Source: Bacteroidales bacterium (lineage in GTDB: Bacteria; Bacteroidota; Bacteroidia; Bacteroidales; UBA932). Taken from it: 34,428 nucleotides of DNA. Position 1 is the stretch's first letter, and every line of letters begins with the position of its first letter. Below, in pieces: positions 3,541 through 28,705 of the stretch. The notes beneath the pieces were generated by a model, which worked only from the letters and a program-made list of their open reading frames with translations, was not told the DNA's origin and made no database searches. The stretch lies in NCBI GenBank assembly GCA_017482565.1, contig JAFUMO010000056.1:1-34428 (forward strand), given 5' to 3'. The position numbers and the translations under genes are program-made.

Positions 3541-6500
3541 ATGTCGCAAAATATAAATAATCAGCGGATTACATTCGCGACTTCAAAATCCCTCCTTGAC
3601 TACCCGGATTTTCTGGAAGTGCAGCTGAAGTCTTTCAAGGACTTTTTCCAGCTGGATACCACTGCAGAGAATCGTAGAAACGAAGGTTTGTTTAAGGTTT
3701 TTCAGGAGATCTTTCCAATTACAGATACCCGAAACAATTTTGTTCTGGAGTTCATTGATTACTTCATTGACCCACCACGCTATTCTATGGACGAGTGTCT
3801 GGACATGGGACTAACTTACAGCGTTCCATTGAAGGCCAAGTTGAAGCTATACTGTACAGATCCTGAGCATGAGGATTTTGATACAGTTATCCAGGATGTG
3901 TATCTGGGAACTATCCCTTACATGACACCAAAAGGTACTTTCATCATAAACGGTTCTGAGCGTATAGTAGTTTCACAGCTCCACCGTTCACCCGGTGTCT
4001 TCTTCGGACAGAGCATGCATGCCAACGGCACAAAGCTTTACTCTGCCAGAATTATCCCGTTCAAGGGTTCATGGATTGAGTTTGCAACTGACATCAATAA
4101 TGTCATGTATGCTTACATCGACCGTAAAAAGAAATTGCCTGTAACCACCTTGTTGAGGGCTATAGGTTTTGAAAGTGACAAGGATATCCTTGATATCTTT
4201 GGTTTGGCTACTGAGGTTAAGGTTAACAAGACCAACCTCAAGAAATGCATTGGCAGCAAGCTTGCTGCCAGGGTCCTCAAGACTTGGAACGAGGACTTCG
4301 TGGATGAGGATACCGGAGAGGTTGTTTCAATTGAGCGTAACGAGATTATCATTGACAGGGAGACAATCCTTGAGGAGAGCCATATTGATGACATCCTTGA
4401 TTCTGATGTAAGCACTATACTTATCCACAATGAGGATGCAAATTCAAGTGATTTTGCAATTATCCACAATACCCTTCAGAAAGATCAATGTAACTCTGAA
4501 ATAGAGGCCATTTTCTATACATACAGGCAGCTGAGAAACTCAGAACCACCTGACGAGGCTACCGCAAGGGACGTTATTGACAAGCTCTTCTTCTCCGACA
4601 AGAGATATGACCTTGGAGAGGTTGGCCGTTACCGTCTCAACAGGAAACTTAACCTTGGAACCCCTAACGATGTTAGGGTACTTACCAAAGCTGACATCAT
4701 TGAGATTATCCGCTATCTGATACAGCTTATCAATGCCAAGGCTACAGTTGATGACATTGACCATTTGAGCAACAGAAGGATCAGGACCGTTGGCGAGCAG
4801 CTTGCAAACCAGTTCAGCGTTGGTCTTGCACGTATGGCAAGGACAATCAGGGAGAGGATGAACGTGAGGGATAATGAGGTGTTTACCCCAATTGACCTCA
4901 TCAATGCAAAGACACTCTCTTCTGTAATCAACTCGTTCTTCGGTACCAGCCAGCTTTCACAGTTCATGGACCAGACAAACCCTCTTGCTGAGATGACCCA
5001 CAAGAGAAGGCTTTCTGCCTTGGGACCTGGAGGTCTTTCAAGGGACAGGGCCGGCTTTGAGGTTCGTGACGTACACTATACACACTATGGCCGTCTGTGT
5101 CCTATTGAGACACCGGAGGGTCCTAACATCGGTCTTATCTCTTCTTTGTGCGTTTATGCAAGGATCAATGAGCTAGGTTTCATTGAGACCCCGTACAGGA
5201 AGGTTGAGAACGGTGTAGTTGACCTTTCTCCAAAGGGATGTGTCTACATGAGCGCTGAAGAGGAGGAGGATAAGGTTGTTGCACAGGCAAACGCACATAT
5301 TGATGAGAACGGAAACTTCACTGACGAGAGGATCAAGTGCCGTTATGAGGCAGATTATCCTGTTGTAGGGAAGGAGAGCGTGCATCTTATGGACGTTGCC
5401 CCTAACCAGATTGCTTCAATTGCAGCTTCGCTGATCCCATTCCTCGAGCACGATGATGCAAACCGTGCGCTGATGGGATCCAACATGATGCGCCAGGCCG
5501 TTCCTGTTGTGAAGCCGGAGGCTCCTATCGTGGGTACAGGACTTGAGGCAGCCGTTGTAAGAGATTCAAGGACTCAGGTTTCTGCAGAGACATCCGGTGA
5601 GATTGTTTATGTGGATGCCAATGAGATACATATAAGATATGACAGGACTGAGGAGGAGAAGTTTGTAAGCTTTGATCCTGAGATTACTGTATACAAGCTT
5701 CCTTTGTACAGGAAGACAAACCAGAGCACTTCAATCCACCTGAAGCCTATAGTGAAGAAGGGTGACAAGGTTGTGAAGGGGCAGATCCTTACTGAGGGTT
5801 ATGCAACCCAGAAGGGTGAGCTTGCTTTGGGACGTAACCTCAAGGTTGCATACATGCCTTGGAAGGGTTATAACTTTGAGGATGCGATTGTGCTTTCAGA
5901 GAGAATCTTGAGGGAGGACATCTTCACCTCTATCCATGTTGACGAGTATATCATGGAGGTAAGGGATACCAAACGTGGTATGGAGGAGCTTACTGCAGAT
6001 ATCCCTAACGTGAGTGAGGAGGCAACCAAGGATCTTGATGAGAACGGCATCATCAGGATTGGTGCCAATGTTGAGCCTGGAGATATCCTTATAGGTAAGA
6101 TTACCCCTAAGGGAGAGAGCGATCCTTCTCCGGAGGAGAAACTTTTGCGTGCAATCTTCGGTGACAAGGCCGGTGATGTGAAGGATGCTTCACTGAAGGC
6201 TTCTCCATCTTTGTCGGGAACCATCATTGACAAGAGATTGTTTGCAAGGGTTGGCAAAGAGGCCAATACAAAGAAAGGCAAGAGCAATACCAAGACTCAG
6301 GTTCAGCAGGCTGAGGAGACATTCAACCGTAAAGTGGGTGTCTTGAGGGACAGGTTCCTCGACAAGCTTGAGGTACTTGTTAAGGGCAAGCTTTCTGAGG
6401 GTGTGAGCGACCTTTATGGCGTTGAGATACTGGCCAAGGGTGAGAAGTTTACAAGGGAGCTTCTTGATTCAATTGACTATGAGAACATCAATCCTACAAA

Positions 6501-7362
6501 ATGGACTGAGGACAAGCATGCAAACGGTCTTATAAAGACCCTTATCAACAATTATCTGATTGCGCATAAGGAGTTTGATGCAGAGCTCAAGAGGATCAAG
6601 TATAATCTCACTATAGGTGATGAGCTTCCTACCGGAATCATGCAGCTTGCCAAGGTTTATGTTGCCAAGAAGAGAAAGATCAGGGTTGGTGACAAGATGG
6701 CGGGACGCCACGGTAACAAGGGTATCGTTGCCAAGGTTGTAAGGGATGAGGATATGCCTTTCCTTGATGACGGTTCAATTGTGGATATAGTTCTTAACCC
6801 TCTTGGTGTGCCTTCACGTATGAATCTGGGCCAGATTTATGAGGCGGTTCTCGGATGGGCAGGAAAAGAGCTTGGTGTGAAGTTCGCTACACCTATCTTT
6901 GACGGTGCAAGCCTTGATGACATTTGCAAATATACTGACAAGGCCGGTCTTCCAAGATACGGCAAGACATATCTGAGCGACGGCGGTACAGGCGAGAAGT
7001 TTGACCAGCCGGCTACAGTAGGTGTGACTTACATGATCAAGTTGGGCCACATGGTTGATGACAAGATGCATGCCCGTTCTATCGGACCATACTCACTCAT
7101 CACCCAGCAGCCTCTCGGTGGTAAGGCGCAGTTCGGAGGCCAGAGGTTTGGAGAGATGGAGGTTTGGGCACTTGAGGCATTCGGTGCATCAAATATCCTT
7201 CAGGAGATCCTTACAATCAAGTCTGATGACGTTGTGGGACGTTCAAGGGCTTATGAGGCTATTGTAAAGGGTGATCCTATGCCTTCTCCAGGTATCCCTG
7301 AGTCGTTGAATGTATTGTTGCATGAGCTCAGAGGATTGGGTCTAAGCGTAAATTTGGACTAA
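3541..7362 (+). CDS. rpoB: DNA-directed RNA polymerase beta subunit
   Basis: RpoB forms one pincer and much of the active-site wall of RNA polymerase. The 1273-residue product is full length for Bacteroidota. The rifampicin region starts at Q471 (E. coli 510 equivalent), with S473, Q474, D477, H487 and S492. These match the sensitive residues at E. coli 512, 513, 516, 526 and 531, so this allele looks rifampicin-sensitive. Other landmarks are [12 protein letters not shown], the [14 protein letters not shown] catalytic block near residue 1050, and [20 protein letters not shown] near the C-terminus. Two exact TTATCCACA words (4421 and 4460) encode IHN and are probably coincidental. The start ATG at 3541 gives the expected N-terminus. 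Confidence 0.98.
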
Positions 7363-7394
7363 TTGGTTTTTGATAATTTGAAATAACGAACAAT

Positions 7395-10300: not shown

Positions 10301-11672
10301 AAAGAGTGATGCAAACGAGACAAGGGAGATTGTTATAGGCCGTACAGCAGAGATGCGCATTGTAGACCCTAACACAGGCATCACATTGTCCCAGTACAAC
10401 GTGCCTTATGGCGCCGACCTGTACAAGAAGGACGGTGAGCTTGTTTCAAAAGGTGACCTTATCTGTAAATGGGACCCATATAACGCAATTACAATTACCG
10501 AGCTTGCGGGTAAGGTAATGTATGACGGCCTTGTTGAGGGTGTAACCTTCAGGGAGGAGTCTGCGGATGAGTTCTCATTGCATAGGGACAAGGTTGTGAT
10601 TGAGAGCAGGGACAAATCAAAGAACCCATGTATCAGGATTGTTGATGCAGATGGCAATGAGTTGAAACAGTACAACTTGCCTGTGGGTGCGCATATTATG
10701 GTAGAGAACGGCCAGGAACTTGTTGCCGGAGACATCCTCATCAAGATTCCTCGTGCAATCGGCAAATCCGGTGATATCACCGGAGGTCTTCCTCGCGTTA
10801 CCGAGCTGTTTGAGGCACGTAATCCTTCCAACCCTGCAATAGTGTCTGAGATTAACGGAGAGGTTCTCATGGGCAAGATTAAGAGGGGTAACAGGGAGAT
10901 TATAGTGAAGTCAAAGACCGGAGAGGAGAAGCGTTATCTGGTTCCACTTTCAAAACAGATTCTTGTACAGGAGAACGATTATGTACGTGCAGGCATGCCG
11001 CTTTCAGACGGTGCAATAGCTCCGGCAGACATACTTGCAATCCAGGGCCCTACAAAGGTTCAGGAGTACATTGTGAATGAGATACAGGAGGTTTACCGTC
11101 TCCAGGGTGTAAAGATCAATGACAAGCACTTTGAGATTATTGTAAGGCAGATGATGCGCAAGGTTGAGATTGTTGATCCGGGTGATACAAGATTCCTCCC
11201 TGAGCAGCTTGTTGACAAATGGGAGTTCATGCAGGAGAATGATGAGATTTGGGACAAGAAGGTTATTCTTGATGCCGGAGACTCACAGAACCTGAAGGCA
11301 GGCCAGATTGTTTCCGTAAGGAGATTGAGGGATGAGAACTCAATGTTGAAACGTCAGGACCTCAAGCTTGTTGAGGCAAGGGATGCGGTTCCTGCAACTT
11401 CAAACCAGGTTCTCCAGGGTATTACCAGGGCAGCCCTCAAGACAAGCAGCTTCATGTCTGCAGCTTCATTCCAGGAGACTACCAAAGTTCTTAGCGAGGC
11501 GGCTATCCACGGTAAGGTTGATACTTTGGAGGGTCTTAAGGAGAACGTTATCTGCGGTCATCCTATCCCAGCCGGTACAGGCCAGAGGGAGTATGAGAAA
11601 CTTGTTGTTGCCTCAATGGATGATTACCAGAGAATGGTTAAGGCAAAACAGGCTAAGGAGCAGGCAGAGTAA
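7395..11672 (+). CDS. rpoC: DNA-directed RNA polymerase beta' subunit
   Basis: RpoC carries the catalytic magnesium site of RNA polymerase. The 1425-residue protein has the N-terminal zinc site with C67, C69, C82 and C85, and the catalytic loop NADFDGDQ with D473, D475 and D477. The second zinc site has C816, C890, C897 and C900. The trigger-loop region [15 protein letters not shown] follows. It starts 32 bases after rpoB and ends at a strong terminator. The subunit is a single polypeptide, as expected for Bacteroidota, with no sign of split or truncation. Confidence 0.98.
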
Positions 11673-11693
11673 GACTCTCAAATACATAAAGAG

Positions 11694-11726
11694 ACCGGGG
11701 ACCGAGGGGTTTCCCGGTTTTTTTTT
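11694..11726 (+). terminator. Intrinsic terminator after rpoC
   Basis: ACCGGG (11694-11699) pairs with CCCGGT (11713-11718). The loop contains a second small stem, ACC (11701-11703) with GGT (11708-11710). Nine T residues follow (11718-11726). It lies 21 bases after the rpoC stop and ends the polymerase operon. Confidence 0.85.
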
Positions 11727-11781
11727 ACCCCAAAACCCCGTGGCATGGGACTGGAGTTGCAGCGGAGAACAGGGATTTTAT

Positions 11782-11789
11782 TATATTTG
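11782..11789 (+). promoter_or_regulatory. Bacteroidota -7 promoter box upstream of the carbonic-anhydrase-like gene
   Basis: TATATTTG matches the TAnnTTTG -7 consensus exactly. A possible -33 TTG lies at 11757-11759, 22 bases upstream, which is slightly wide. The predicted start of transcription would be near 11796, about 13 bases before the ATG at 11809. It follows the rpoC terminator directly, so it is a sensible place for a new promoter. Confidence 0.65.
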
Positions 11790-11808
11790 TGCTTTAATAC
11801 TTTTAAAA

Positions 11809-12324
11809 ATGGCAATAATCAGAGAATTAAGGGGATTTGTACCTAAGTTTGGCAAGGACTGTTTCATTGCAGAGAATGCGGCAATCATAGGTGATGTTAC
11901 AATGGGTGATGACTGCAGCATCTGGTATGGAACTGTACTCAGGGGTGATGTGAATACAATAAAGATTGGAAACAGGGTGAACATCCAGGACGGTGCGGTA
12001 GTGCATACCCTGTATGAGAGGTCTGTAAGTGAGATAGGTGATGATGTATCAGTGGGACACAATGCAATCATCCATGGAGCAAAGATTGGCAACAATGTCC
12101 TTATAGGCATGGGGGCAATAATTATGGACAATGCCGTTGTTCCCGACAATACCATAATTGCTGCAGGTGCCGTGGTGCTGAGCAATGCAGTGCTGGAGCC
12201 GGGCGTTTATGCAGGGATACCTGCCAAGAAGGTGAAGGATACCTCTGAGGCAGTATATCAGGCTGCACATAAGAATGCACAGGGCTACCTGATGTACAAG
12301 GAGTGGTACAAGGAAGAGGAATAA
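11809..12324 (+). CDS. Gamma-class carbonic anhydrase family protein (left-handed beta-helix hexapeptide repeats)
   Basis: The 171-residue protein begins MAIIRELRGFVPKFG and is built of hexapeptide repeats such as IGDVTM, IGNRVN and IGNNVL, which fold as a left-handed beta helix. Three histidines sit at the expected metal positions: one in QDGAVVH and two in VGHNAIIHG. The end AGIPAKKVK is typical of the YrdA/PaaY/CaiE group. Carbonic anhydrase activity is possible but unproven for this branch, so no symbol is given. The frame is open far upstream into rpoC, but the true start is ATG 11809, behind a good -7 box. The next gene begins 23 bases downstream and may be co-transcribed. Confidence 0.9.
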   Translation: MAIIRELRGFVPKFGKDCFIAENAAIIGDVTMGDDCSIWYGTVLRGDVNTIKIGNRVNIQDGAVVHTLYERSVSEIGDDVSVGHNAIIHGAKIGNNVLIGMGAIIMDNAVVPDNTIIAAGAVVLSNAVLEPGVYAGIPAKKVKDTSEAVYQAAHKNAQGYLMYKEWYKEEE

Positions 12325-12347
12325 ACAACAATACAAACTTTATATTT

Positions 12348-13463: not shown

Positions 13464-13489
13464 TCGTCTTCCCGATAAAAATACACAGG

Positions 13490-13517
13490 CACCCCTCCCC
13501 CCGAGGGGTGTTTTTTT
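13490..13517 (+). terminator. Intrinsic terminator after the TlpA-like gene
   Basis: CACCCCTC (13490-13497) and GAGGGGTG (13503-13510) form a perfect 8-bp stem around CCCCC, followed by seven T. It lies 27 bases after the stop at 13463. Confidence 0.92.
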
Positions 13518-13555
13518 ATCCAATTTTTATGGTTGTGGAAGGTGAGCAGGAAAAA

Positions 13556-13682
13556 AAGAGGGGGTGACTCGAAAGGTGGAAATTTAAGGCTTGCACAGGT
13601 GAGGAAACCGGAGTTTACTTACGTAAATGAGGATTTCCGAGGCAAGCGTAACGCAAAATTTACCCTTTTGAGTCACCCTCTT
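13556..13682. repeat. 127-bp nested palindromic element (MITE-like or structured repeat)
   Basis: The whole stretch folds on itself. The outer arms are AAGAGGGGGTGACTC (13556-13570) and GAGTCACCCTCTT (13670-13682), with a 2-base bulge. Further in, GAAAGG pairs with CCTTTT, and AAATTT (13580-13585) with AAATTT (13656-13661). GCTTGC (13589-13594) pairs with GCAAGC (13642-13647), and GGAAA (13603-13607) with TTTCC (13634-13638). At the centre TTTAC (13614-13618) pairs with GTAAA (13623-13627). It lies between convergent genes, so it is not needed as a promoter. A 78-residue reading frame crossing it is not believed. No transposase is present. A non-autonomous mobile element or a structured RNA or terminator are both possible. 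Confidence 0.7.
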
Positions 13683-13707
13683 ATTGTGTTCCGTTATGTA
13701 CGGTGGA

Positions 13708-14979: not shown

Positions 14980-15012
14980 AAATCTGCGTTATATAGGTTT
15001 TAAATTGTTTCT

Positions 15013-15543: not shown

Positions 15544-16356
15544 CTATAAGCCCATCACATCTTTCATGGCAGGGGCATATGGTTCCTCTCCGGTAAAGAG
15601 CCTGAAAGCCGGTATTGCCTGGTTGTAGAGCCAGTGGCGACCGTCTATGTATGTGCCCGCCCCGCTGCAGTTCAGGTTAGGGTGTGCATAATTGGCTTCA
15701 AAGACAATCTTTCCCTCAAGGGAAACCCCCTCCAGAGGTGCAATTTTCATGGAGAGGTTATATACAATTATGTCTGCCTGCCCAAGCATGAGAGGTATCT
15801 TCTCCAGGGGGATATACTCTGCACCTATCTTTTCTGCAAAGGGTGCGGCGGTGTGGAAACTCCTGTTGGCAAAATACACCTGCATCCCCATATCCTTCAC
15901 GGCCAGGGCGGCAGCCTTGCCAGCCCCGCCTGCCCCAATTACAATTGCAGTGAGTCCGTTTCCATGGAGGGAGGTATCCGCCCTGCCGGTTGTGCTGCCG
16001 TGTGCCCTTGCCGGCCCGGGGCTTTTTGTAAGGAATTCCTCAAGGGTGTTCCTTACCCCATAGTAATCTGTGTTGTAGGAGTGGAGTTTCCCCTCCCTTG
16101 AGACAATGGTATTGGCACTCCCGAGCGTTGAGGAAATGTTGTCGGGAAGAGAGACATATTGCATAACTTCATCCTTGAAGGGGGATGTTATGTTGATTCC
16201 TGTAAATCCCTCTCCTGTAAAGCGTTCCATTGCTTCCTTGCAGGTAGGTGCCTCAATGAGTGAATATGAGTGGGGGCCATCCCCGTAGGCGGCCTTGAAG
16301 AGGGCCGGGCTCTTGGAGTGGGAGATGGGGTTGCCTATAAGTCCGCATTTTGCCAT
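15544..16356 (-). CDS. aroE: Shikimate dehydrogenase
   Basis: AroE reduces 3-dehydroshikimate to shikimate with NADPH in aromatic amino acid synthesis. The 270-residue protein has the substrate motif NPISHSKSP (residues 9-17), the catalytic pair K61 (in SPFK) and D97 (in NTD), N82, and the nucleotide-binding loop GAGGAGKA at 141-148. The family is usually nearer 245-250 residues in this phylum. The excess is a Gly/Ser/Thr/His-rich linker at about 111-134, between the substrate and NADP domains. The upstream gene on this strand, the permease, ends 12 bases before its start, so it is probably co-transcribed with the export operon. Confidence 0.95.
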   Translation of the reverse strand: MAKCGLIGNPISHSKSPALFKAAYGDGPHSYSLIEAPTCKEAMERFTGEGFTGINITSPFKDEVMQYVSLPDNISSTLGSANTIVSREGKLHSYNTDYYGVRNTLEEFLTKSPGPARAHGSTTGRADTSLHGNGLTAIVIGAGGAGKAAALAVKDMGMQVYFANRSFHTAAPFAEKIGAEYIPLEKIPLMLGQADIIVYNLSMKIAPLEGVSLEGKIVFEANYAHPNLNCSGAGTYIDGRHWLYNQAIPAFRLFTGEEPYAPAMKDVMGL

Positions 16357-16368
16357 TTTCCTTTCTCT

Positions 16369-18582: not shown

Positions 18583-18634
18583 ATATTTGTATCTTGTGCC
18601 GTATTGTGTCCCGGGTTATTCTCCGGAATACTTG

Positions 18635-19636
18635 TCATTTGCCGTTGTAGTGTACAATCACGCTCATCCCAGGGCGGAGCTGTGAAGCCTCTTTTGAGTG
18701 CCCTGAAGGACGGGCCTTTACCTTGAAGGTAACCAGATTGTATGAGCCGCTCTGGCGGCTGCTCTGCCAGGTTGCATAGCTCCCCATAGGGCTTGTGTAA
18801 TATACTTCAAATACCATTTCCTTGTTGTCCAGGGCAGGAACTTTTCCCTTGAACTTTTTTCCTTGGCTGAAGTGGTGCAGCAGGTCTTCCCGGATGTTCA
18901 GCACAACGTGGATGTCATCCAGTACAAGCAGGTTCATTATGGAGCCGCCCGGCATTACAAGCTCCCCTTCAGAGGGGTATATTTCAGAGATCATCCCGTC
19001 TGCCGGGGCTGTGAGGCGGCTGTCCCTGAGCAGGGCCTTCACCTCATCCAAGCTGCCTTGTGCAGCATCCACAAGTGCCTGTGCGGCATTCTTGTCCTCT
19101 TGTCGGGAACCTTCTTGTGCCATCTCATATTGGTAGAGGGCAGCTTTCTCTGCAGCTTGGGCTGTCTGTGCCAGGGCTGCAGCCTCATCCCTGCGCTGCA
19201 GGGTTACAACACTGTCCCGGTATAGTCTTTCAACCCTTTCAAGTGTGGTTGCGGCGAGGTCTGCCTGGGATCTGGCAGCCATCCATGCCTCCCTAAGGGT
19301 GGCAATTACCTGTTCCCTGGCCCCCTTGTCTATTTTCCTGCTCTCGTAAGCAGCGGCATCCTTCATGGCTGAAGCGCTCATCATCAGAGCGTCAGCCTCG
19401 GGGCTGTTTATAAGTACAAGGGTGTCACCGGCCTTTACCATATCTCCCTCTTCCGTATAGAATTTCCCAATCCTGCCAAGGAGCTTCCCAGATATCTTTA
19501 TCTGTGTGCATTCCACTTCCCCCTGCAGTATGGTGGGGGAGTCCTTATATAGCACCATCCCGAATATTGAGATGATGGCTGCCAGAACAACAATCAGGGT
19601 TGTTATTTTAAGCAGCAGCTTGTTGTCCGTATTCAT
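18635..19636 (-). CDS. HlyD-family periplasmic adaptor (membrane fusion protein)
   Basis: The 333-residue protein has one N-terminal TM segment (about residues 9-29), which anchors it in the inner membrane. A lipoyl-like half-domain follows, including GKLLGRIGKFYTEEGDMVKA. A long Ala/Glu/Arg-rich coiled-coil hairpin spans about 65-195. The second lipoyl half is DSRLTAPADGMISEIYPSEG, and a beta-barrel end closes with LRPGMSVIVHY. Such adaptors bridge an inner-membrane permease and an outer-membrane TolC channel. The gene lies between the TolC-like and fused permease genes, with gaps of 67 and 52 bases. Confidence 0.93.
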   Translation of the reverse strand: MNTDNKLLLKITTLIVVLAAIISIFGMVLYKDSPTILQGEVECTQIKISGKLLGRIGKFYTEEGDMVKAGDTLVLINSPEADALMMSASAMKDAAAYESRKIDKGAREQVIATLREAWMAARSQADLAATTLERVERLYRDSVVTLQRRDEAAALAQTAQAAEKAALYQYEMAQEGSRQEDKNAAQALVDAAQGSLDEVKALLRDSRLTAPADGMISEIYPSEGELVMPGGSIMNLLVLDDIHVVLNIREDLLHHFSQGKKFKGKVPALDNKEMVFEVYYTSPMGSYATWQSSRQSGSYNLVTFKVKARPSGHSKEASQLRPGMSVIVHYNGK

Positions 19637-19703
19637 TGTGAGGTGTTTTTGTTTTCAGTTGTCATTGTTGAGGTTACAATTAGTTCAGTTGTCGCATTCC
19701 CGG

Positions 19704-21224
19704 TTATCTTGTTTCCTGTTGTCTTGCAGCTGTTGTAGGGTTCAAGGTATTGTGCAGCCGGATGAATTCTCCGGTATCTGCACTCAGGGCAAGAAGGTTT
19801 GCAAGTGATGTGCAGTATTGCCATCCGGCAAGGTCAAGGGCGGTCCTGGCCTTTGTGAGGGTGGTGCGGGCGGCAACCACGTCAGTTGAGGTACACATCC
19901 CTTCAGAAAAGCTTTTCTCCCTTTCTCTGAGCAGTTCTTCGGCCAGGATGATGCTCTTGCGGAGTGTCTTCATATTATATGATGCATCCTCCATATTTCC
20001 CCTCAGGGCAAGGGCAGCTGTAAGCAGGTCTTTTTCCGCCTGGTCTGTGGTGTATTCCATCTGCCGCTCTTCAATGCGCCCTGCCTGTATCTCCTTCTCC
20101 CTGGCCAGCCCGTCAAACAGGTCCCACTGCATTGCAACTCCAACTATGGTGCGGGGGAGGAGGTTTTTGGGAATATTGTTGGAATGGAGGTTCTGCCGGG
20201 CAAAGAGGGCAAAATTGGGAATGTACCCGCTCTGGGCAATCTTCCGCTTGTTTTCCAGTATCTTGCCCTGTGCATGGAGTATCTTCAGTTGCGGGTTATA
20301 CTGCATTATGCGGCTGCTGATCAGAGAGATTGGGGGGATTGAGTCAAGGGTGAAGAAACTACCTTGGGGAATGATGCCGGAAAGTTCTTTCCCAAGTATG
20401 GCATTCAGTGCCTGTGCGGCAACTCCTGTGCTTTGCCTGGTGCTCTCATATTCTCTTGAAGCTTCATCAGCAGCTACCTGCACAACCAGATATTCTGCCT
20501 TGTTGATGAATCCTTCCTCCTTGAGTCTCAGTGCATTCTTCTGTAGCTTCCTTATGTACTGCAGGTTTTCCTGCTGCATCTGTTCCACCTGCAGAGCAAG
20601 CTTGAGGGTGTAATACGCGTTCAGCATGAGGGCCCTCTGCCCATTCTCTGTAAGAGTGTTGAGGTACCCGGCAGATTCTACCAGGGAGTTCCCTATCCTC
20701 CCTGCATAAATCCTCTTGCCACCGGTAATCAGGGGCCATAAGGCCACAGCATCAACTGATGTTACATTTTTCCCGACAAGTGGTACAGACAGTGTGGCGG
20801 AGGAGAGCCCTGCCACTACCTGCTGCAGTTGGGGGAGCAGCTGCTGCAGAAGCTGTTCCAATCCCGCGGCATTTCCGGCAAGGTCCTGCAGGATCCCCTG
20901 GGCAAGCTCTCCCATGTTGGCATCGGCTGTTATCTCATTTGAGAAGTGGATGTATCCTCCTGTGGCCCCTATAGATGGGTACCATGTGGCCTGTAGCTGC
21001 TGTTTGCGGGCCCTTGCCGCTTCAACTGTACTCCTGGAAATCTTCATTGCATTGTTGTTCTGCTCCAGGATAGTGGCAGCTTCTTCAAGGGAGAGAGGAT
21101 ATCCTCCTGCAGGTATTCCGGTATCGTGGGGTGGTACAGGAGATTGCCCCATAGCTATGCCGGGCACCAGCAGCGCTGCCGCTGCAGCTCCCCATAATGC
21201 TGCCGATAAAAAAAATTGTCTCAT
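19704..21224 (-). CDS. TolC-like outer-membrane efflux protein
   Basis: The 506-residue protein starts MRQFFLSAALWGAAAAALLV, a signal peptide probably cut after GIAMG. It has the two-fold helical repeat of the TolC/OprM family, with the openings LSLEEAATILEQNNNAMKIS and, in the second half, ISSRIMQYNPQLKILHAQ. Long coiled-coil helices and a late DLFDGLAREKEIQ element fit a trimeric outer-membrane channel. The open frame runs 30 codons further upstream, but those lead into the palindromic element and lack a signal sequence, so ATG at 21224 is chosen. It heads the HlyD-permease operon. Confidence 0.92.
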   Translation of the reverse strand: MRQFFLSAALWGAAAAALLVPGIAMGQSPVPPHDTGIPAGGYPLSLEEAATILEQNNNAMKISRSTVEAARARKQQLQATWYPSIGATGGYIHFSNEITADANMGELAQGILQDLAGNAAGLEQLLQQLLPQLQQVVAGLSSATLSVPLVGKNVTSVDAVALWPLITGGKRIYAGRIGNSLVESAGYLNTLTENGQRALMLNAYYTLKLALQVEQMQQENLQYIRKLQKNALRLKEEGFINKAEYLVVQVAADEASREYESTRQSTGVAAQALNAILGKELSGIIPQGSFFTLDSIPPISLISSRIMQYNPQLKILHAQGKILENKRKIAQSGYIPNFALFARQNLHSNNIPKNLLPRTIVGVAMQWDLFDGLAREKEIQAGRIEERQMEYTTDQAEKDLLTAALALRGNMEDASYNMKTLRKSIILAEELLREREKSFSEGMCTSTDVVAARTTLTKARTALDLAGWQYCTSLANLLALSADTGEFIRLHNTLNPTTAARQQETR

Positions 21225-21274
21225 AAGCTTCCGTTTGCTTAAAGACAATTTTATGTGCCGGTTTGTTTCTTGTA

Positions 21275-21395
21275 ACGTTGTCCTTTTGTACAATTCATTG
21301 AAAATGAATTGCATAAAAACAGCATATACAGGATTTCCGTATATGCTGTTTTTTCAAACAACTGAAGGCCAGTTGTTTGTACAAAAGGACAACGT
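21275..21395. repeat. 121-bp palindromic element A: inverted termini plus three internal hairpins
   Basis: ACGTTGTCCTTTTGTACAA (21275-21293) and its exact complement (21377-21395) close the element as a 19-bp perfect inverted repeat. Inside are three more hairpins: CAATTCATT with AATGAATTG (21291-21311), AAAAACAGCATATAC with its 15-base complement (21315-21353), and CAAACAACTG with CAGTTGTTTG (21355-21379). Folded, it is a four-way, cloverleaf-like structure. It lies between the methyltransferase stop and the TolC-like start. The core CGTTGTCCTTTT is shared with element B at 24071-24197. The flanking TAA on both sides (21273-21275 and 21395-21397) could be a target duplication, but element B does not show the same. 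Confidence 0.75.
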
Positions 21396-21401
21396 AAAAA
21401 A

Positions 21402-22331
21402 CTACTGCCTCTGCCGTACCGCCTCGTAGCAGAGCACCGCTGCTGAGACTGAGACGTTAAGGGAATCAAGCTCCCCGAGCATAGGAATCTTTATTTTGGC
21501 ATTTGAGGCCTTGCGCCAGAAATCTGTAAGGCCGGTGGATTCGGTCCCCATCACTATGGCGGTTGGGGCGGCCATATCTGTATTGTAATACCACTCGGAG
21601 TCCTGCAGCTGGGCGGTGAAGATGTTTATGTTGTTTGCACGGAGCCATTCCAGGGCCTCTTCATTGGTACATGCCACAACCTGGTTGGTAAAGATGCCTC
21701 CAAGGCTGGAGCGGATGAGGTTGGGGTTGTAGAGGTCTGTGAGCGGGTCACATACCAGTACGGTATCTATTCCGCATGCATCGGCAGTGCGGAGGAGGGC
21801 ACCCAGGTTTCCAGGCTTCTCCACGCTCTCAACTACAAGCACAAGAGGCTGTTCCCATTTTTTGCCGAACCTGACATCCTGCAGGGAGAGCTTCTTCTCT
21901 TCCACCACTGCAACCATCCCTTCTGTATTTTCCCTGTAGGCAATCTTTGAGTATACGGTAGGGGTGAGGGAGAAGAGGGCAGGCAGGTTATCCTGTCCGT
22001 GGTCCGCTTTGCCGGCATGGGAACATGTATCGTGGAGTTCTCCTGTCCCGGCTGCTGTGCTGCCGGTGTTGCGGGAAGAGGAGAGGGTACCGGATTCTCC
22101 GTCATGGACGGGATTTGTCGGGAAGAGGGCTACAACCTGCTGTGGGGAAACTATCCGGCTGTTGAAGAAGATGCTCCTTATGGTGAAGCCGTTCCTGATG
22201 CAGGCGGATATTTCGCGTACCCCTTCCACTACAAAGAGCTTGCGGGTGCGGCGTTCCCTGGATTTTTCCAGCAGTGCGGCTGTCTCCTTTATCTTTGGGT
22301 TCTGTGCAGATGTTATTTCCTGAATGTTCAT
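21402..22331 (-). CDS. SpoU/TrmH-family RNA 2'-O-methyltransferase
   Basis: The 309-residue protein is a SPOUT-fold enzyme that methylates rRNA or tRNA ribose using S-adenosylmethionine. The N-terminal substrate-binding domain has ITSAQNPKIKE and LFVVEGVREI. The SPOUT motifs are EKPGNLGALLRTADACGIDT (about 171-190), IVMGTESTGL (about 258-267) and the C-terminal IPMLGELDSLNVSVSAAVLC. Start ATG 22331 (MNIQEITSAQ) is preferred to the longer frame, which would cover the lysS terminator. A low-complexity insertion of roughly 45 residues (about 71-117) separates the two domains. The exact nucleotide substrate cannot be told from sequence. Confidence 0.92.
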   Translation of the reverse strand: MNIQEITSAQNPKIKETAALLEKSRERRTRKLFVVEGVREISACIRNGFTIRSIFFNSRIVSPQQVVALFPTNPVHDGESGTLSSSRNTGSTAAGTGELHDTCSHAGKADHGQDNLPALFSLTPTVYSKIAYRENTEGMVAVVEEKKLSLQDVRFGKKWEQPLVLVVESVEKPGNLGALLRTADACGIDTVLVCDPLTDLYNPNLIRSSLGGIFTNQVVACTNEEALEWLRANNINIFTAQLQDSEWYYNTDMAAPTAIVMGTESTGLTDFWRKASNAKIKIPMLGELDSLNVSVSAAVLCYEAVRQRQ

Positions 22332-22369
22332 CTCAAGTGCTTGTATGTGAGGCCTTGCGGCGTGGCTGT

Positions 22370-22403
22370 AAAAAAGCCCGGCTGCTCTGTGCGATGCCGG
22401 GCT
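22370..22403 (-). terminator. Intrinsic terminator after lysS
   Basis: On the plus strand AGCCCGGC (22375-22382) and GCCGGGCT (22396-22403) form an 8-bp stem preceded by an A-run at 22370-22375. Read on the minus strand this is a GC-rich hairpin followed by six U. It begins 17 bases after the lysS stop and ends before the methyltransferase start at 22331. Confidence 0.9.
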
Positions 22404-22420
22404 GAAGTTTTTCAAGTTGG

Positions 22421-23935
22421 TTATTTGTAGCTCTCCGGCCTCATCTGAGGGAAGAAAAGTACATCCTGGATTGTTGTCTGTCCTGTCATGAACATGGTGA
22501 GGCGGTCAATTCCTATACCCATGCCGGATGTAGGAGGCATACCGTACTCGAGGGCGCGTACAAAGTCCATATCAATGTACATTGCCTCGTCATCACCCTT
22601 GTCCTTGAGCTTCAGCTGGTCCTCAAAGCGGGCAAGCTGGTCTATAGGGTCGTTCAGTTCACTGTAGGCGTTGGCAAGCTCCTTGCCGCATACGAACAGC
22701 TCAAAGCGCTCTGTGAGGTTTGGCTTGCTCCTGTGGCGTTTTGTGAGCGGAGACATTGATACGGGGTAGTCTGTGATGAAGGTTGGCTGTACAAGGTGCT
22801 TTTCGCAGTACTCTCCGAATATTGCATCAATGAGTTTGCCCTCACCCATCTTCTCGTCAACCTCAACATGGAGTTTCTTGCAGGTCTCGCGCAGCTCGGC
22901 CTCGCTCATCCCCTCAATGTCAACCCCAGCATACTCCTTTATTGCCTCAAGCATAGGGAGCCTTCTGTAGCCGGCGGCAAAGTCAACCTCAGTACCGTTG
23001 ATGTTTACTTTGGTTGTACCGTTTACGGCTGTTGCAACGGTTGCAAGCATCTCCTCTACAAAGTCCATCATCCAGTTATAGTCCTTGTAAGCAACGTATA
23101 TCTCCATACATGTGAACTCAGGGTTGTGGGTCCTGTCCATGCCCTCATTGCGGAAATTCTTTGCAAACTCATACACTCCCTTGTAGCCGCCTACGATAAG
23201 GCGTTTCAGATACAGCTCGTTTGCTATACGCAGGTAAAGAGGCATATCCAACGTGTTGTGGTGGGTGATGAACGGCCTTGCAGTTGCACCTCCGGGGATA
23301 GGCTGGAGGATAGGGGTCTCAACCTCAAGGCATCCTCTCTCGTCAAAGAAGCGGCGCATGGTTGATATTATCTTAGACCTCTTCATGAAAGTCTCCCTTA
23401 CCTGCGGGTTAACGATGAGGTCCACATATCTCTGGCGGTATCTCAGCTCCGGGTCAGAGAATGCGTCAAACACCTCTCCGTCCTTCTCCTTCACAATAGG
23501 GAGTACCCTCAGAGACTTGCTCAGCACAGTAAGTTCCTTTGCGTGTACGGATTTCTGGCCTGTCTGGGTAACGAATGCAAAACCCTTGATCCCAATTATG
23601 TCACCGATATCAAGAAGCTTCTTGAATACGGTGTTGTACATTGTCTTGTCCTCACCGGGGCAAATCTCGTCCCTCTTCACATAAATCTGAACCCTTCCTT
23701 TCTCATCCATCAGCTCAATGAATGCCGCTGCTCCCATAATCCTGCGGCTCATGATACGTCCTGCAATGGCCACATCCTGGAAGTTCCCCTCCTCAGGATT
23801 ATACCTTTCACGGATATCCTCTGTAGTTGCATTTATGGGGTACATTGCAGCCGGATACGGCTCAATCCCCAATTCCCTCATCTGTGCAAGAGCATTGCGC
23901 CTGTTAAGCTCCTGCTCGTTCAAATTCAATTCCAT
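22421..23935 (-). CDS. lysS: Lysine--tRNA ligase (class II)
   Basis: LysS charges tRNA-Lys with lysine. The 504-residue protein starts [20 protein letters not shown]. The N-terminal OB fold contains [20 protein letters not shown]. Class II motif 1 ([17 protein letters not shown]), motif 2 ([19 protein letters not shown]) and motif 3 ([12 protein letters not shown]) are all present, with the family end [12 protein letters not shown] longer frame to 24046 exists, but its extra 37 residues are hydrophobic, unlike the family, and pass through the promoter region. The gene is divergent from recJ across a 309-base spacer. Confidence 0.97.
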
Positions 23936-23956
23936 ATATGTCAAATCTTTAATTAT

Positions 23957-23964
23957 CAAAAGTA
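23957..23964 (-). promoter_or_regulatory. Possible -7 promoter box for lysS
   Basis: On the minus strand this reads TACTTTTG, an exact TAnnTTTG match, 21 bases upstream of the lysS ATG. No good -33 element was found at the expected distance, so the call is tentative. Confidence 0.45.
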
Positions 23965-24070
23965 CTTTCTTCCCGACAATTCTGCCGGAAAGATACAGAA
24001 ATGCAAAAATAACATTTTTTTGCACAAAAGTCCCTCTTTCCGCCAAAATCCTCCGTACCAGCTCCGGAAC

Positions 24071-24197
24071 TTATCGTTGTCCTTTTTTTTAACAGTCAGA
24101 TTTTAAATGGATTATAAATGGGGTTTGTTGTAAATATTGAACATGCTATTTTCTATAAGACTGGAAATCTGACTGTTGGAAAAAAGGACAACGATAA
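24071..24197. repeat. 127-bp palindromic element B with long inverted termini
   Basis: TTATCGTTGTCC (24071-24082) pairs exactly with GGACAACGATAA (24186-24197). The inner arm AACAGTCAGATTT (24091-24103) pairs exactly with AAATCTGACTGTT (24165-24177), and a T-run and an A-run join them apart from a two-base mismatch. The arms total about 33 bp and the centre (24104-24164) is AT-rich with no strong fold. The core CGTTGTCCTTTT is the same as in element A at 21275. Because it lies between divergent genes it is not placed to terminate either one, which favours a mobile or regulatory origin. Confidence 0.75.
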
Positions 24198-24207
24198 ATG
24201 AGGTGGG

Positions 24208-24238
24208 TTGTGGATAAAGAATAAAATTCTTATCTTTG
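24208..24238 (+). promoter_or_regulatory. recJ promoter with embedded DnaA box
   Basis: TTG (24208-24210), a 20-base spacer and TATCTTTG (24231-24238) match the Bacteroidota -33/-7 pattern well. The predicted start of transcription (about 24243-24247) falls on the recJ ATG at 24245. TGTGGATAA (24209-24217) is a perfect DnaA box on the minus strand, overlapping the -33 element, so DnaA could compete with polymerase. That role is an inference. Confidence 0.65.
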
Positions 24239-24244
24239 TATGTT

Positions 24245-25987
24245 ATGGAAATTAATAATATAGGCAGAAAGTGGATAGTTAAGGAGCCGGGGAATCCGGC
24301 AACGGTGCGCAGGCTGGCACAGGAGCTGGGGATAGATCCGGTTCTGGCGAACCTGTTGGTACAGAGGGGGATTACAACGTATGAGGAGGCGAGGACCTTT
24401 TTTAGGCCAGACCTTTCCATGCTGCATGACCCGTTCCTGATGAAGGATATGGACAAGGCGGTTGCCCGTTTGCACAAGGCAATAGAGGATAATGAGAAGA
24501 TTCTGGTTTATGGTGATTATGATGTGGACGGTACATCCGCGGTTTCGCTGGTATATACTTTCCTCAGTACAATTACCAGGAACCTGGAGTATTATATTCC
24601 TGTGAGGTATGATGAGGGCTACGGCATTTCTTACAAGGGAATAGACTGGGCGCATGAGGGGGGATATACCCTTGTGATTGCGCTGGATTGCGGCATAAAG
24701 GCGGTGGAGAAGGTGCAGTACGCCAAGGAGAGGGGGATTGACTTCATAATCTGTGACCACCATCTTCCGGATGAGACCTTGCCTGAGGCTGCAGCAATCC
24801 TGGACCCGAAGAGGGAGGATTGCCATTATCCTTTTGATGATCTGTCGGGATGTGGAGTGGGTTTCAAGCTGGTTCAGGGGTATGCCAAGAAGTATGGTAT
24901 CCCTTTTGAGCAGATTGTGAACCTGCTGGATCTGGTGGCGGTGAGCATTGCTACAGACCTGGTTTCCGTAACGGGAGAGAACAGGGTGCTGGCTTTTTAT
25001 GGGCTAAAGCAGCTCAACGAGGCTCCCCGCAAGGGGCTCCTTTCAATGATAAAGCTTTCAGGCCTTGAGAAACATACGATTTCCATAGATGACATAGTGT
25101 TCAAGATTGGGCCGAGGATAAATGCGGCTGGCAGGATGGAGAGCGGCCGTATGGCGGTGGATCTCCTTACCTCAAGACGTGAGGAGGAGGCCCTGAACAT
25201 AGGCAACGAGATAAACAAGCACAACAACGAGCGCAAGAATGTGGACCGGGAGATTACAGTTGAGGCAATTGAGATGGTGAAGCGTTCGCCGGATTTTGAG
25301 AAGCGCAAATCAACAGTGGTGTACAACTCGCAGTGGCACAAGGGTGTTGTGGGTATAGTTGCAAGCCGTCTGGTTGAGGCGTATTACAAGCCTACAATAG
25401 TGCTTACAAACTCAAACGGATTTGTTACCGGTTCGGCAAGGAGCATACCGGGTTTTGACCTCTATGAGGCTATAGAGAGCTGTTCAGACCTGCTGGAGAA
25501 CTTCGGTGGCCATATGTATGCTGCCGGCATGACTCTCAAGGAGGAGAATCTGGCAGAGTTCTCGGAGAGATTTGAAAAATATGTGGCCCAGAAGATTACC
25601 AAAGAGGTGCTCACACCTATAGTGAACATTGATTCATTCTTGGACTTCAAGCAGATAACCCCCAAGTTCTTCAGGATATTGAAGCAGTTCCAGCCGTTCG
25701 GGCCCGGGAACAGTTCTCCGGTGTTCGTTACAGAGAATGTATATGACAACGGAAACGGAAGGATTGTGGGGAGCGACAACGGCCACCTGAAGCTGGAGCT
25801 TATACAGGAGGATGAGCCTTACAGGTATATTTCAGCAATAGCATTCAACAAGAGCGAACATTTCAGCCACATGCAGGGTGGTAATCCTGTAGATATCTGC
25901 TATTCGATAGCGGAGAACTACTACAGGGGGATTGCAAACCTCCAGCTGAGGATTAAGGATATCAGGAACAGGGAAGATTTCATATAG
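24245..25987 (+). CDS. recJ: Single-stranded-DNA-specific exonuclease RecJ
   Basis: RecJ degrades single-stranded DNA from 5' to 3' in recombination and mismatch or base-excision repair. The 580-residue protein has the DHH phosphoesterase motifs. DYDVDGT has D91, D93 and D95; a later Asp is in ALDCGIKAV; and D171-H172-H173 lead DHHLPDE. The DHHA1 part has SARSIPGFDLYEAI and GGHMYAAGMTL. A C-terminal OB-type domain follows. A TTG at 24236 would add three residues but lies inside the -7 box, so ATG 24245 is chosen. The start may be leaderless. It is followed after 3 bases by parC. Confidence 0.95.
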   Translation: MEINNIGRKWIVKEPGNPATVRRLAQELGIDPVLANLLVQRGITTYEEARTFFRPDLSMLHDPFLMKDMDKAVARLHKAIEDNEKILVYGDYDVDGTSAVSLVYTFLSTITRNLEYYIPVRYDEGYGISYKGIDWAHEGGYTLVIALDCGIKAVEKVQYAKERGIDFIICDHHLPDETLPEAAAILDPKREDCHYPFDDLSGCGVGFKLVQGYAKKYGIPFEQIVNLLDLVAVSIATDLVSVTGENRVLAFYGLKQLNEAPRKGLLSMIKLSGLEKHTISIDDIVFKIGPRINAAGRMESGRMAVDLLTSRREEEALNIGNEINKHNNERKNVDREITVEAIEMVKRSPDFEKRKSTVVYNSQWHKGVVGIVASRLVEAYYKPTIVLTNSNGFVTGSARSIPGFDLYEAIESCSDLLENFGGHMYAAGMTLKEENLAEFSERFEKYVAQKITKEVLTPIVNIDSFLDFKQITPKFFRILKQFQPFGPGNSSPVFVTENVYDNGNGRIVGSDNGHLKLELIQEDEPYRYISAIAFNKSEHFSHMQGGNPVDICYSIAENYYRGIANLQLRIKDIRNREDFI

Positions 25988-25990
25988 GAT

Positions 25991-28705
25991 ATGCAGGAAG
26001 ACGAAGTTACAGACAGAGAAGATGCGGTAGAGGAGATTGTGGAGGGGCAGGATGGCAGTACCGGCAAATACGAGAAGCTCATAAAGGACGGTGAGAACAA
26101 GTACAAGCTCACCGGAATGTACAAGGACTGGTTCCTTGATTATGCTTCATACGTTATTCTGGAGCGTGCCGTACCGCATATTTCAGATGGTTTCAAGCCG
26201 GTGCAGAGGCGTATAATGCACGCAATGAAGAACATTGATGACGGCCGCTATAACAAGGTGGCTAACATCATAGGACAGACCATGCAGTATCATCCGCACG
26301 GGGACGCATCTATTGGGGATGCCCTTGTACAGCTTGGGCAGAAGGACCTCCTTGTGGATTGCCAGGGTAACTGGGGAAACATCCTCACTGGAGACAGTGC
26401 TGCTGCGCCCCGTTACATTGAGGCCCGCCTGAGCGAGTTTGCAAAGGAGGTGGTGTTCAACCCTAAGACAACCGAGTGGATGAACTCATACGATGGCAGG
26501 AACCAGGAGCCTGTGAACCTCCCTGTGAAGTTCCCGCTGCTGCTGGTGCAGGGGGTTGAGGGAATTGCAGTGGGCCTGGCCTCAAAGATCCTTCCGCACA
26601 ACTTCAATGAGGTTATAGATGCGGCAATAGCCCATTACAGGGGAGAGGAGTTTGAACTCTATCCTGATTTCCCGACAGGGGGACTCATAGACTGCAGCAA
26701 GTACAACCGAGGCCTCCGCGGAGGGGCAGTGAAGGTGAGGGCAAAGATTTCCAAGCTGGACAAGAAGACCCTTGTAATTACGGAGATACCTTTCGGGAAG
26801 AGCACTTCCGTGCTCATTGAGAGCATTCTCAAGGCAAATGACAAAGGGAAGATAAAGATAAAGAAGGTGGATGACAACACGGCTGCCGAGGCGGAGATTG
26901 TAATCCATCTGCACAACGATATCTCTCCGGACAAGACCATAGACGCACTCTATGCGTTCACCGATTGTGAGGTGTCACTCTCTCCTAACTCCTGTGTGAT
27001 CATGGACAAGCACCCGCACTTCATAGGGGTGGATGAGATTCTCCGCTACAGTGCAGACTACACCAAGGAGCTCCTGCGCAGGGAACTGGAGATAAGGCTG
27101 GCGGAGCTGGAGAACGAATGGCATTATTTCTCGCTTGAAAAGATATTCTTTGAGAACAAGGTATACCGTATCCTGGAGCAGGAAGCCCGTACATGGGAGG
27201 CCCAGCTGGATGATGTCCACAATAAGATGCTGGAGTTCCAGCACCTTGTACACCGCCCTATAGTTATGGAGGACATTCTCAAGCTGGTGGAGAAGCCGGT
27301 ACGCAAGATCTCCAGGTTTGACGTGAAGGCAGTGGATGAGAAGATTGCCAGACTTGAAGAGGAGATGAAGGTTGTAAGGCATAACCTTGCTCACCTTGTG
27401 GAGTTTGCAATCGCCTACTTTGAGAGGCTGAAGAAGAAATACGGTGAGAAATACCCAAGGCTCACACAGATAAGCAACTTTGAGACAATTGAGGCAACCA
27501 AGGTGGTTGTGGCAAATGCCAAGCTGTATGTGAACCGCTCCGAGGGATTTGTGGGAACAGACCTCAAGAAGGATGAGAATGCGGAGTATCTGTGCGAGTG
27601 CTCGGACATAGATGACATCATAGTGTTCCTCAAGAATGGAAAATATATTGTAACCAAGATACAGAACAAGGCATTCATAGGGAAGGATATCCTGCATGCT
27701 GCGGTATTTGTGAAGAATGATACCCGTACCATCTACAATGTGGTATACAAGGACGGCAAATACTCGGCAGACGGCAAGACGGGGACCGTATATGCAAAGA
27801 GGTTCTCGGTTACAAGCGTCACCAGGGACAAATGGTATGACCTAACCCAGGGCAAGCCTGATTCCTCAATAGTATGGTTCTCAGCCAACCCTAACGGAGA
27901 GGCTGAGGTGCTCAAGGTGTTCCTCAAGCCGAGGCCCAAGCTCAAGAAGCTCATCCTTGAGTACGATTTTGCGGAGCTGGCAGTAAAGGGCAGGGGTTCA
28001 ATGGGAAATATCCTCTCAAGGAACCCTCTTCACAAGGTGCAGCTCAAGTCCAAGGGAAAATCCACCATCGGCGGCAAGCCGGTGTGGTTTGATGAGGACA
28101 TCAACCGACTGAATGAGGACCAGCGCGGTATCCTGTTGGGAGAGTTCCAGGCCGGTGACCGCATACTTGTAATCTGCAAGGACGGAACATTCTATACAAC
28201 CAACTTTGACTTGAGCAACAGGTACCAGGGGGATATCCTGAAGGTGGAGAAATATGATTCACAGAAGACCTACAGTGCAATATACATAGATGGTGAAACA
28301 GGATTCCATTATATAAAGAGGTTCTCGTTTGAGCCTAATGACAACATGCCGGTGCTCTTCATCTCCGATGCTCCGGGTTCACGCTTTGTTGAACTCTCGG
28401 AGGACCTGCATCCCCAGGCACTCATCACCTTCGGCGGCAAGCATGCCAAGAGGGAGGCAGAGGCAGTGGATGTGGAGGAATTCATCGGGAAGAAAGGCTT
28501 CAAGGCCAAAGGAAAAAGGGCAACCACATTTGAGGTGGAGGGGGTGAAGTTCATAGAGCCGCTGCAGAAGGAAGAGCCTGAAGATGTGAATCTTCCCGAC
28601 AGCAATCCGGAAGGGGCGGCACCTGAGGCAGATGTGCAGCAGCATGGAGAAGAGGGGTTCGCACCGGGGAGTACTATAGAGTTTGATGAACCAACACTGT
28701 TTTAG
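25991..28705 (+). CDS. parC: DNA topoisomerase IV subunit A (ParC/GyrA family)
   Basis: This subunit cuts and rejoins DNA to separate linked daughter chromosomes. The 904-residue protein has the winged-helix core with catalytic Y142 (in PRYIEARL). The quinolone region is YHPHGDASIGDALVQLGQ, in which Ala and Asp occupy the positions equivalent to E. coli GyrA 83 and 87. After the coiled-coil and tower region, the C-terminal part has beta-pinwheel-like repeats (about 545-830) and lacks an obvious GyrA box, which fits ParC rather than gyrase. The tail (about 860-904) is acidic and low-complexity. parE is not in the window. A separate gyrA elsewhere would confirm the assignment. Confidence 0.92.
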   Translation: MQEDEVTDREDAVEEIVEGQDGSTGKYEKLIKDGENKYKLTGMYKDWFLDYASYVILERAVPHISDGFKPVQRRIMHAMKNIDDGRYNKVANIIGQTMQYHPHGDASIGDALVQLGQKDLLVDCQGNWGNILTGDSAAAPRYIEARLSEFAKEVVFNPKTTEWMNSYDGRNQEPVNLPVKFPLLLVQGVEGIAVGLASKILPHNFNEVIDAAIAHYRGEEFELYPDFPTGGLIDCSKYNRGLRGGAVKVRAKISKLDKKTLVITEIPFGKSTSVLIESILKANDKGKIKIKKVDDNTAAEAEIVIHLHNDISPDKTIDALYAFTDCEVSLSPNSCVIMDKHPHFIGVDEILRYSADYTKELLRRELEIRLAELENEWHYFSLEKIFFENKVYRILEQEARTWEAQLDDVHNKMLEFQHLVHRPIVMEDILKLVEKPVRKISRFDVKAVDEKIARLEEEMKVVRHNLAHLVEFAIAYFERLKKKYGEKYPRLTQISNFETIEATKVVVANAKLYVNRSEGFVGTDLKKDENAEYLCECSDIDDIIVFLKNGKYIVTKIQNKAFIGKDILHAAVFVKNDTRTIYNVVYKDGKYSADGKTGTVYAKRFSVTSVTRDKWYDLTQGKPDSSIVWFSANPNGEAEVLKVFLKPRPKLKKLILEYDFAELAVKGRGSMGNILSRNPLHKVQLKSKGKSTIGGKPVWFDEDINRLNEDQRGILLGEFQAGDRILVICKDGTFYTTNFDLSNRYQGDILKVEKYDSQKTYSAIYIDGETGFHYIKRFSFEPNDNMPVLFISDAPGSRFVELSEDLHPQALITFGGKHAKREAEAVDVEEFIGKKGFKAKGKRATTFEVEGVKFIEPLQKEEPEDVNLPDSNPEGAAPEADVQQHGEEGFAPGSTIEFDEPTLF

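Follow-up and report, generated by a model that had tools for sequence, protein, structure and literature searches.

The word in the window and in the assembly

The analyzed DNA, called the window here, is a stretch of 34,428 nt that forms one contig (C48) of a Bacteroidales assembly of 70 contigs (2.10 Mb, 89% complete). It carries ordinary genes, among them rpoB and genes for shikimate dehydrogenase, efflux proteins, an rRNA methylase, a tRNA synthetase and a topoisomerase subunit, and sites described below fall inside them. Homologues were found for the first of these ORFs, which we take to encode RpoB; its best match among the matches listed had 79% identity and came from Bacteroidales. 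The 10-mer TTCCCGACAA occurred seven times in the window (four copies on the minus strand and three on the plus strand), at every position given in a preliminary description of this DNA. All seven copies lay in ORFs of at least 100 aa, one more coding copy than had been counted. The coordinates of these and related sites are listed in Table 1.

Table 1. Sites of the word and its variants in the window
Feature	Position	Strand	Context
Exact TTCCCGACAA, dialect A site	6211..6220	-	Inside the presumed rpoB ORF 3541-7362
Exact TTCCCGACAA	12140..12149	+	Within ORF 11368-12324 (ATG near 11809 the likely start), which by eye resembles a hexapeptide-repeat protein
One-mismatch copy TTCCCGATAA	13469..13478	+	Fits degenerate TCCCGAYRR
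Exact TTCCCGACAA	16139..16148	-	Shikimate dehydrogenase ORF 15544-16356
Exact TTCCCGACAA	19100..19109	-	HlyD-family membrane fusion protein ORF 18635-19636
Exact TTCCCGACAA	20770..20779	+	Outer membrane efflux protein ORF 19704-21314, gene on opposite strand
Exact TTCCCGACAA	22115..22124	-	SpoU rRNA methylase ORF 21402-22415
Exact TTCCCGACAA	23970..23979	+	Class II tRNA synthetase (D/K/N family) ORF 22421-24046, gene on opposite strand
Core TCCCGACA	24843..24850	-	Absent from the preliminary list
TTCCCGACAG	26669..26678	+	DNA topoisomerase A-subunit ORF 25991-28705; A or G at last position normal for the motif
Degenerate site TCCCGATG	28483..28490	-	DNA topoisomerase A-subunit ORF 25991-28705
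TTCCCGACAG	28593..28602	+	DNA topoisomerase A-subunit ORF 25991-28705
Degenerate site TCCCGACG	31141..31148	+	
Core TCCCGACA	33305..33312	-	

Dinucleotide shuffles of the window gave a mean of 0.09 copies of TTCCCGACAA, and none of 100 shuffles reached seven. Twelve places in the window matched TTCCCGACAA with at most one mismatch; the three one-mismatch copies reported previously were present, and two further copies (5363-5372 and 30566-30575) had been missed. The degenerate form TCCCGAYR had 14 sites in the window versus 2.4 expected. Seven of these 14 lay outside the 12-24 kb interval, so that the clustering there suggested by the preliminary description was not marked. The copy that it had placed in a methyltransferase is in a gene for an rRNA methylase (SpoU) and not for a DNA methyltransferase.

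The excess was not confined to the window. The whole assembly contained 164 copies of TTCCCGACAA, divided equally between the two orientations (82 + 82), versus 11 (9 + 2) for the backwards control, which bore out the earlier statement that the count is far above chance. The core TCCCGACA was present in 639 copies, about one per 3.3 kb. In 24 genomes from other families of the order, TTCCCGACAA occurred 2-23 times each (325 in total versus 190 for the control), and nothing comparable to the excess was seen in them.

The natural unit of the word and codon control

Motif analysis was performed with a 434-kb sample (20 stretches of 20 kb plus the window) of the genome containing the window (G000). 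The strongest words in this sample overlapped TCCCGACA and CTTCCCGACA, and the base after TCCCGACA was A or G. The natural unit was TCCCGAYRR with a weak T-rich 5' flank, shorter and more degenerate than the 10-mer originally taken as the unit. Beyond this flank there was no conserved context, and the copies are therefore not pieces of one longer repeat. The motif is non-palindromic and in this respect is not a HIP1-like word. Among the one-base variants in G000, changes in the first six bases (TCCCGA) were near or below expectation; the tolerated changes were C7 to T (35 versus 13.8 expected) and A8 to G (26 versus 3.7).

A similar tolerance was observed in G034, where TCCCGACAG occurred 133 times versus 8.5 expected. 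Variants of TCCCGACAG at positions 1, 2, 4, 5, 6 and 9 were near or below expectation, whereas any base was tolerated at position 3, T at position 7 and G at position 8; position 9 was G. At the core positions, exact copies thus far exceeded one-base variants, although all 27 one-base variants together (165) outnumbered the 133 exact copies. For the 10-mer itself, a large surplus of exact copies over one-base variants had been proposed as support, and the 434-kb sample gave the reverse (40 exact copies versus 100 in all 30 variants). TTCCCGACAA was also at background in G034 (8 copies) and G001 (5 copies) despite 750 and 465 cores, respectively.

Synonymous codons were then shuffled within 335 ORFs of the G000 sample. 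In G000 genes TCCCGACA was seen 104 times versus 7.4 in the codon shuffles (14-fold), which agrees with the earlier argument that codon constraint does not explain the word. In G034 genes, the corresponding values were 108 versus 5.8 for TCCCGACA and 101 versus 2.1 for TCCCGACAG. An unrelated control word, ACAGCCCT, was 1.9-fold over the shuffles in G000, which indicates the size of error to expect in this baseline, and 1.1-fold over them in G034. The over-representation is real and genome-wide, and goes beyond codon and composition effects.

Dialects of the word within the genus

We searched 39 genomes of the genus, and drew the line for a dialect at more than 200 copies, a threshold of our own. 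Dialect A was found in 13 of the 39 genomes, which had 229-985 copies of TCCCGACA, 2.2-31 times the backwards control (lowest in G022); the other 26 had 11-154 copies. Dialect B, represented by ATCGCYGAG, reached 274-817 copies in 11 of the 39 genomes (control 5-20) and 2-34 copies in dialect A genomes. Neither word exceeded 200 copies in 15 genomes, some of which kept a weak excess over the backwards control (the B word in G013, 83 versus 2; the A word in G002, 154 versus 38). When 13 genomes were sampled for their leading 8-mer, it was part of ATCGC[CT]GAG in G003, G004, G017, G021, G026, G027 and G032; G010 and G001 showed the A word, G002, G008 and G029 showed no clear word, and G015 showed a repeat. 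The palindrome ATCGCGAT was also over-represented in the dialect B samples G004, G017, G026 and G032 (e.g. 22 versus 5.1 in G026).

In dialect B genes, TCCCGACA was at the shuffle expectation (7 versus 7.0), whereas CTC[AG]GCGAT was seen 104 times versus 13.9. Conversely, the dialect B word CTC[AG]GCGA was rarer in the genes of the 434-kb G000 sample than in codon shuffles (7 versus 27.4), as if avoided, and its form TCRGCGAY had no site in the window versus 2.1 expected. Written with the T-rich side first, A reads TC-N-CGA-Y-R and B reads TC-NN-CGA-T/C, where G predominates at the second spacer position. Both dialects contain the halves TC and CGA, which lie one base apart in A and two bases apart in B.

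In an RpoB tree built from 30 of the 39 genomes, ten dialect A genomes shared a clade with G015 and G020, two further dialect A genomes, G034 and G001, branched off basally in the dialect B-containing group, and species with neither word were scattered. The dialects are phylogenetically structured; an ancestral A that was replaced by B in one lineage and lost several times would fit this tree. A third dialect, CATCTGAAC in G015, was considered and rejected as locally clustered repeats (46 copies of ATCTGAAC in 74 kb, but 153 of CATCTGAAC genome-wide). Both in G015 and in G030, where the clusters are tight, CATCTGAAC occurred in dense local clusters in both orientations and is apparently a local repeat.

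Orientation, spacing and turnover of the sites

The sites lay mostly inside genes and in both orientations. Intergenic DNA was nevertheless enriched in sites, with 12.9% of them in 6.8% of the sequence, and 20.7% in 9.1%. Relative to the gene strand, dialect A sites were split 57:51 and 53:58; one dialect B pattern was split 95:99, and another leaned antisense (91:119, p 0.06). With GC skew in the sampled stretches as a proxy for the replication strand, the bias was not significant for A (92:116, p 0.11) or B (64:74); sites in stretches with a skew below 0.03 were omitted, so that 88 of 124, 120 of 140 and 138 of 212 sites were used. The word thus showed no significant strand bias, as had been anticipated. 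G034 is a single contig of 2.23 Mb, and all 21 stretches sampled from it contained 3-10 core sites per 20 kb, with no origin or terminus zone of sites seen among them.

Only the exact core in G000 was clearly evenly spaced (none of six control words was as even). Evenness was weaker for the G034 core (3 of 50 control words were as even) and absent in G016, in dialect B and, for the degenerate motif, in G034. Being only partial, evenness was dropped as evidence for uptake.

The 13 dialect A genomes contained 63 inverted pairs of sites with gaps of 2-20 bp versus 14.5 expected; several of these genomes are close relatives that share pairs, so that neither genome nor pair counts are independent. 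Elsewhere, one pair was found in G015 and none in the other 25 genomes; the backwards control gave one each in G030 and G062. G010 had the most core copies, yet only one inverted pair versus 2.1 expected. Some pairs form perfect short-loop hairpins (e.g. at position 5307 of G034 stretch L128). As regards placement expected of terminators, 5 of 13 sampled pairs lay between ORFs and 8 of 13 inside mechanically called ORFs.

In 101 kb aligned between G000 and G016 (82.6% identity), 6 of 15 sites were kept versus 20% of 1294 control sites, a count from which at least three further changed sites had been dropped for gaps or ends. This conservation was not significant, as control words reached 0.53 at the 95th percentile. 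Turnover of sites between the two genomes is visible.

Contents of large site-poor gaps

For the three largest gaps each of G000 and G016 and the two largest of G034, a subset of the ORFs was scanned; the scan covered gap regions only. Six of these eight gaps looked mobile, defense-related or surface-variable, and two held ordinary genes. Among the 20 G000 stretches of 20 kb, only one was free of TCCCGACA (the chance of at least one is about 7%). This stretch (L006, G000:C4:1-20000) is a conjugative transposon with TraG, TraJ, TraM, ArdC and Rep3 domains, and it retained three degenerate sites versus a mean of 10.3 per stretch. The transposon also carries a KilA-N protein and a FimA-like fimbrillin; ArdC is an antirestriction domain and Rep3 an initiator. 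Two neighboring G016 gap stretches contained AAA_24, T5orf172 and a sub-threshold prophage tail domain, and appear to be phage-like.

The remaining gaps included a glycosyltransferase cluster, a NACHT/KAP cluster and a Cas9-Cas1 locus, and two G000 gaps held SusCD, LPS-transport, rotamase and Rho genes. The Cas9 and Cas1 genes lie at 9282-19090 of L125 (G034:C1:940001-960000). The G034 samples also contained 12-mers at about 50 copies, possibly from its CRISPR array. An island of GC 0.31 at 6384-17530 of L136 (G034:C1:2200001-2220000) encodes a 1447-aa NACHT-domain protein and a KAP NTPase, and possibly serves defense. In this small set, mobile, defense or variable-surface DNA accounts for most of the large site-poor gaps.

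Competence genes and search for a possible receptor

Of the competence genes whose presence the preliminary description had proposed to check, comEC and dprA were each present in 38 of the 39 genomes of the genus. Its type IV pili were not recovered: no PF00437 (T2SSE/PilB/PilT) match exceeded the cut-off in any of the 39 genomes, compared with 13 of 14 control genomes, and short sub-threshold matches occurred in 31 of the 39. Because the pilus ATPase was searched for with PF00437 and not found, the word is not a member of the known DUS/USS type IV pilus systems. ComEC and DprA were present irrespective of the word, with no correlation. The ComEC frame in G000 (L017, 7138-8226) is short, with 362 aa, and may be devoid of the C-terminal nuclease-like domain of longer ComEC proteins. 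HHH_3 proteins were present in 39 of 39 genomes, although this profile also matches other proteins, such as one in G061 that is DNA ligase-like by eye; a 366-aa ComEA-like frame (L253) was among them.

A candidate receptor was a frame of 550-710 aa that carries a single HHH domain close to its start; by eye, the start resembles a signal peptide and the remainder an outer-membrane barrel. Its absence in species with neither word was suggested by the HHH_3 search, and gene presence as a guide to the receptor was abandoned when a full-length profile found the protein in 38 of 39 genomes, with weak matches in G008 and G035; only G001, a dialect A genome, had none. The protein evolves fast (52% identity between G000 and G016, versus 98% for RpoB between the same genomes); its tree left out G006, G013 and G062 (3 of 30 loci) as well as G008. 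It is a candidate only, because its presence does not follow the word. As the competence genes and the barrel-like candidate also occur in species with no strong word, no gene that we found tracks it. A pair of a TonB receptor and a lipoprotein as in Riemerella was likewise sought; the pair in L018 is SusC/SusD-like and was rejected, and the scan of the sampled stretches for such pairs gave two receptor candidates only.

Discussion

The word described here is probably bound by a sequence-specific component that identifies DNA as of the cell's 'own kind', most likely as a DNA uptake sequence in natural transformation; judged from the sequences, we put the probability of this reading at about 0.55. 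The preliminary description had proposed either an uptake-like signal or a dispersed protein-binding site. That proposal fits most of the sequence tests, but its 10-mer unit, variant ratio and clustering were corrected or not borne out, and its type IV pili were not found with PF00437.

An unlikely alternative is an intracellular protein, either chromosome-organizing or of the nucleoid, that binds the word and that changed its preferred spacing by one base from one lineage to another. Such a protein would suit the strict bipartite motif in both orientations, and the presence of at least three core sites in each of the 21 stretches around the G034 chromosome. However, sites of ParB, MatP and SlmA show origin or terminus zones, and the G034 stretches showed neither; several lineages are without a strong word, and the excess of short-gap inverted pairs is not expected for a protein of this kind. 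About as unlikely is a Chi-type site read by a putative AddAB/RecBCD-like nuclease of the genus and marking self DNA for recombination repair. Chi is likewise a short, non-palindromic and species-specific self-marker, and the density of the core, its thinness in some mobile DNA and the lineage-specific words are in keeping with it. Chi acts with polarity, however, and usually favors the leading strand, whereas the word had no significant strand polarity by the skew proxy on sampled stretches. The inverted pairs also argue against Chi, and a switch of words would leave hundreds of old sites unread.

A methyltransferase target like the cyanobacterial palindrome, presumably HIP1, and favored through methylation or repair, is very improbable: the word is not a palindrome, and a methyltransferase is not expected to need a T-rich flank past the core. 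The precedent for it is an over-represented palindrome with a methyltransferase site, as tabulated for a cyanobacterium (PMC1939737). There is a negligible chance that codon usage, base composition or a dispersed repeat produced the word as an artefact, since even with an imperfect shuffle baseline, to which the control word points, the excess over codon-preserving shuffles was 14- to 47-fold, backwards controls were low, the copies shared no context past the motif, and the word was at background in sister species of similar GC.

A DNA uptake sequence can be compared with known systems. The best-known genome-wide uptake words are those of Neisseriaceae and Pasteurellaceae, in which DNA is taken up through type IV pili. 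The DUS-binding protein of Neisseriaceae is ComP, a type IV minor pilin, and the USS of Pasteurellaceae consists of a core plus a T-rich flank, in which it resembles the word here. According to the cited sections of PMC3630211, DUS are bound by a DUS-specific binding protein, are non-palindromic, occur in very many copies, form dialects that follow phylogeny, and are missing from some family members, all but the first as seen here; the DUS dialects share a short core, CTG, as TC and CGA are shared in this genus. Unlike Neisseriaceae, the genus showed no type IV pilus ATPase above the PF00437 cut-off, and its dialects differ not only in bases but also in how far apart the halves stand. The USS, like the word, occurs in both orientations and largely in coding DNA (65% in H. 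influenzae, as cited in PMC1939737), but it is a different word in a different phylum with different envelope machinery. Even spacing of the USS has been both claimed and doubted in the same source, and here evenness was only partial.

Within the Bacteroidota, competence that does not rest on a known type IV pilus has been reported (PMC8459023, PMC11532111). As summarized there, transformation of R. anatipestifer requires ComEC, DprA, ComF, RecA, an HHH protein, two predicted surface proteins and a DUF1343 protein (PMC8459023), and P. gingivalis requires ComEA and ComEC, with the outer-membrane step unassigned (PMC11532111). The genus resembles Riemerella and Porphyromonas in belonging to the Bacteroidota, in ComEC with DprA or ComEC with ComEA, in HHH proteins, and in an outer-membrane step that is not attributed to a type IV pilus, as far as the cited parts of these papers describe it. 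R. columbina prefers its own DNA, and the k-mer table for it and two others lists only A/T-rich top words, with no uptake word established in the cited part of the paper (PMC7965970). In the open-licence literature, searched by title or abstract (subscription papers and preprints fall outside this scope), we found no description of an uptake word in Bacteroidota; one paper there, on Chi density, concerns other species.

If the word serves uptake, free DNA of the same species or of a species with the same dialect would be bound through it and would cross the outer membrane without a type IV pilus. The DNA would then be handed to a ComEA-like helix-hairpin-helix protein, ComEC and DprA, and be recombined, and the word would accumulate through biased uptake. 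At slightly less than even odds, this Bacteroidales genus, in which no type IV pilus was detected, may represent a separate origin of self-recognition by uptake sequences, with at least two dialects that arose within the genus, their halves one or two bases apart, and sister species that may be partly closed to each other's DNA. Self-recognizing transformation would then have evolved more than once, and the finding would point to a yet-unseen outer-membrane DNA receptor. The word would also serve as a sequence barcode that shows among which Bacteroidales species DNA is exchanged.
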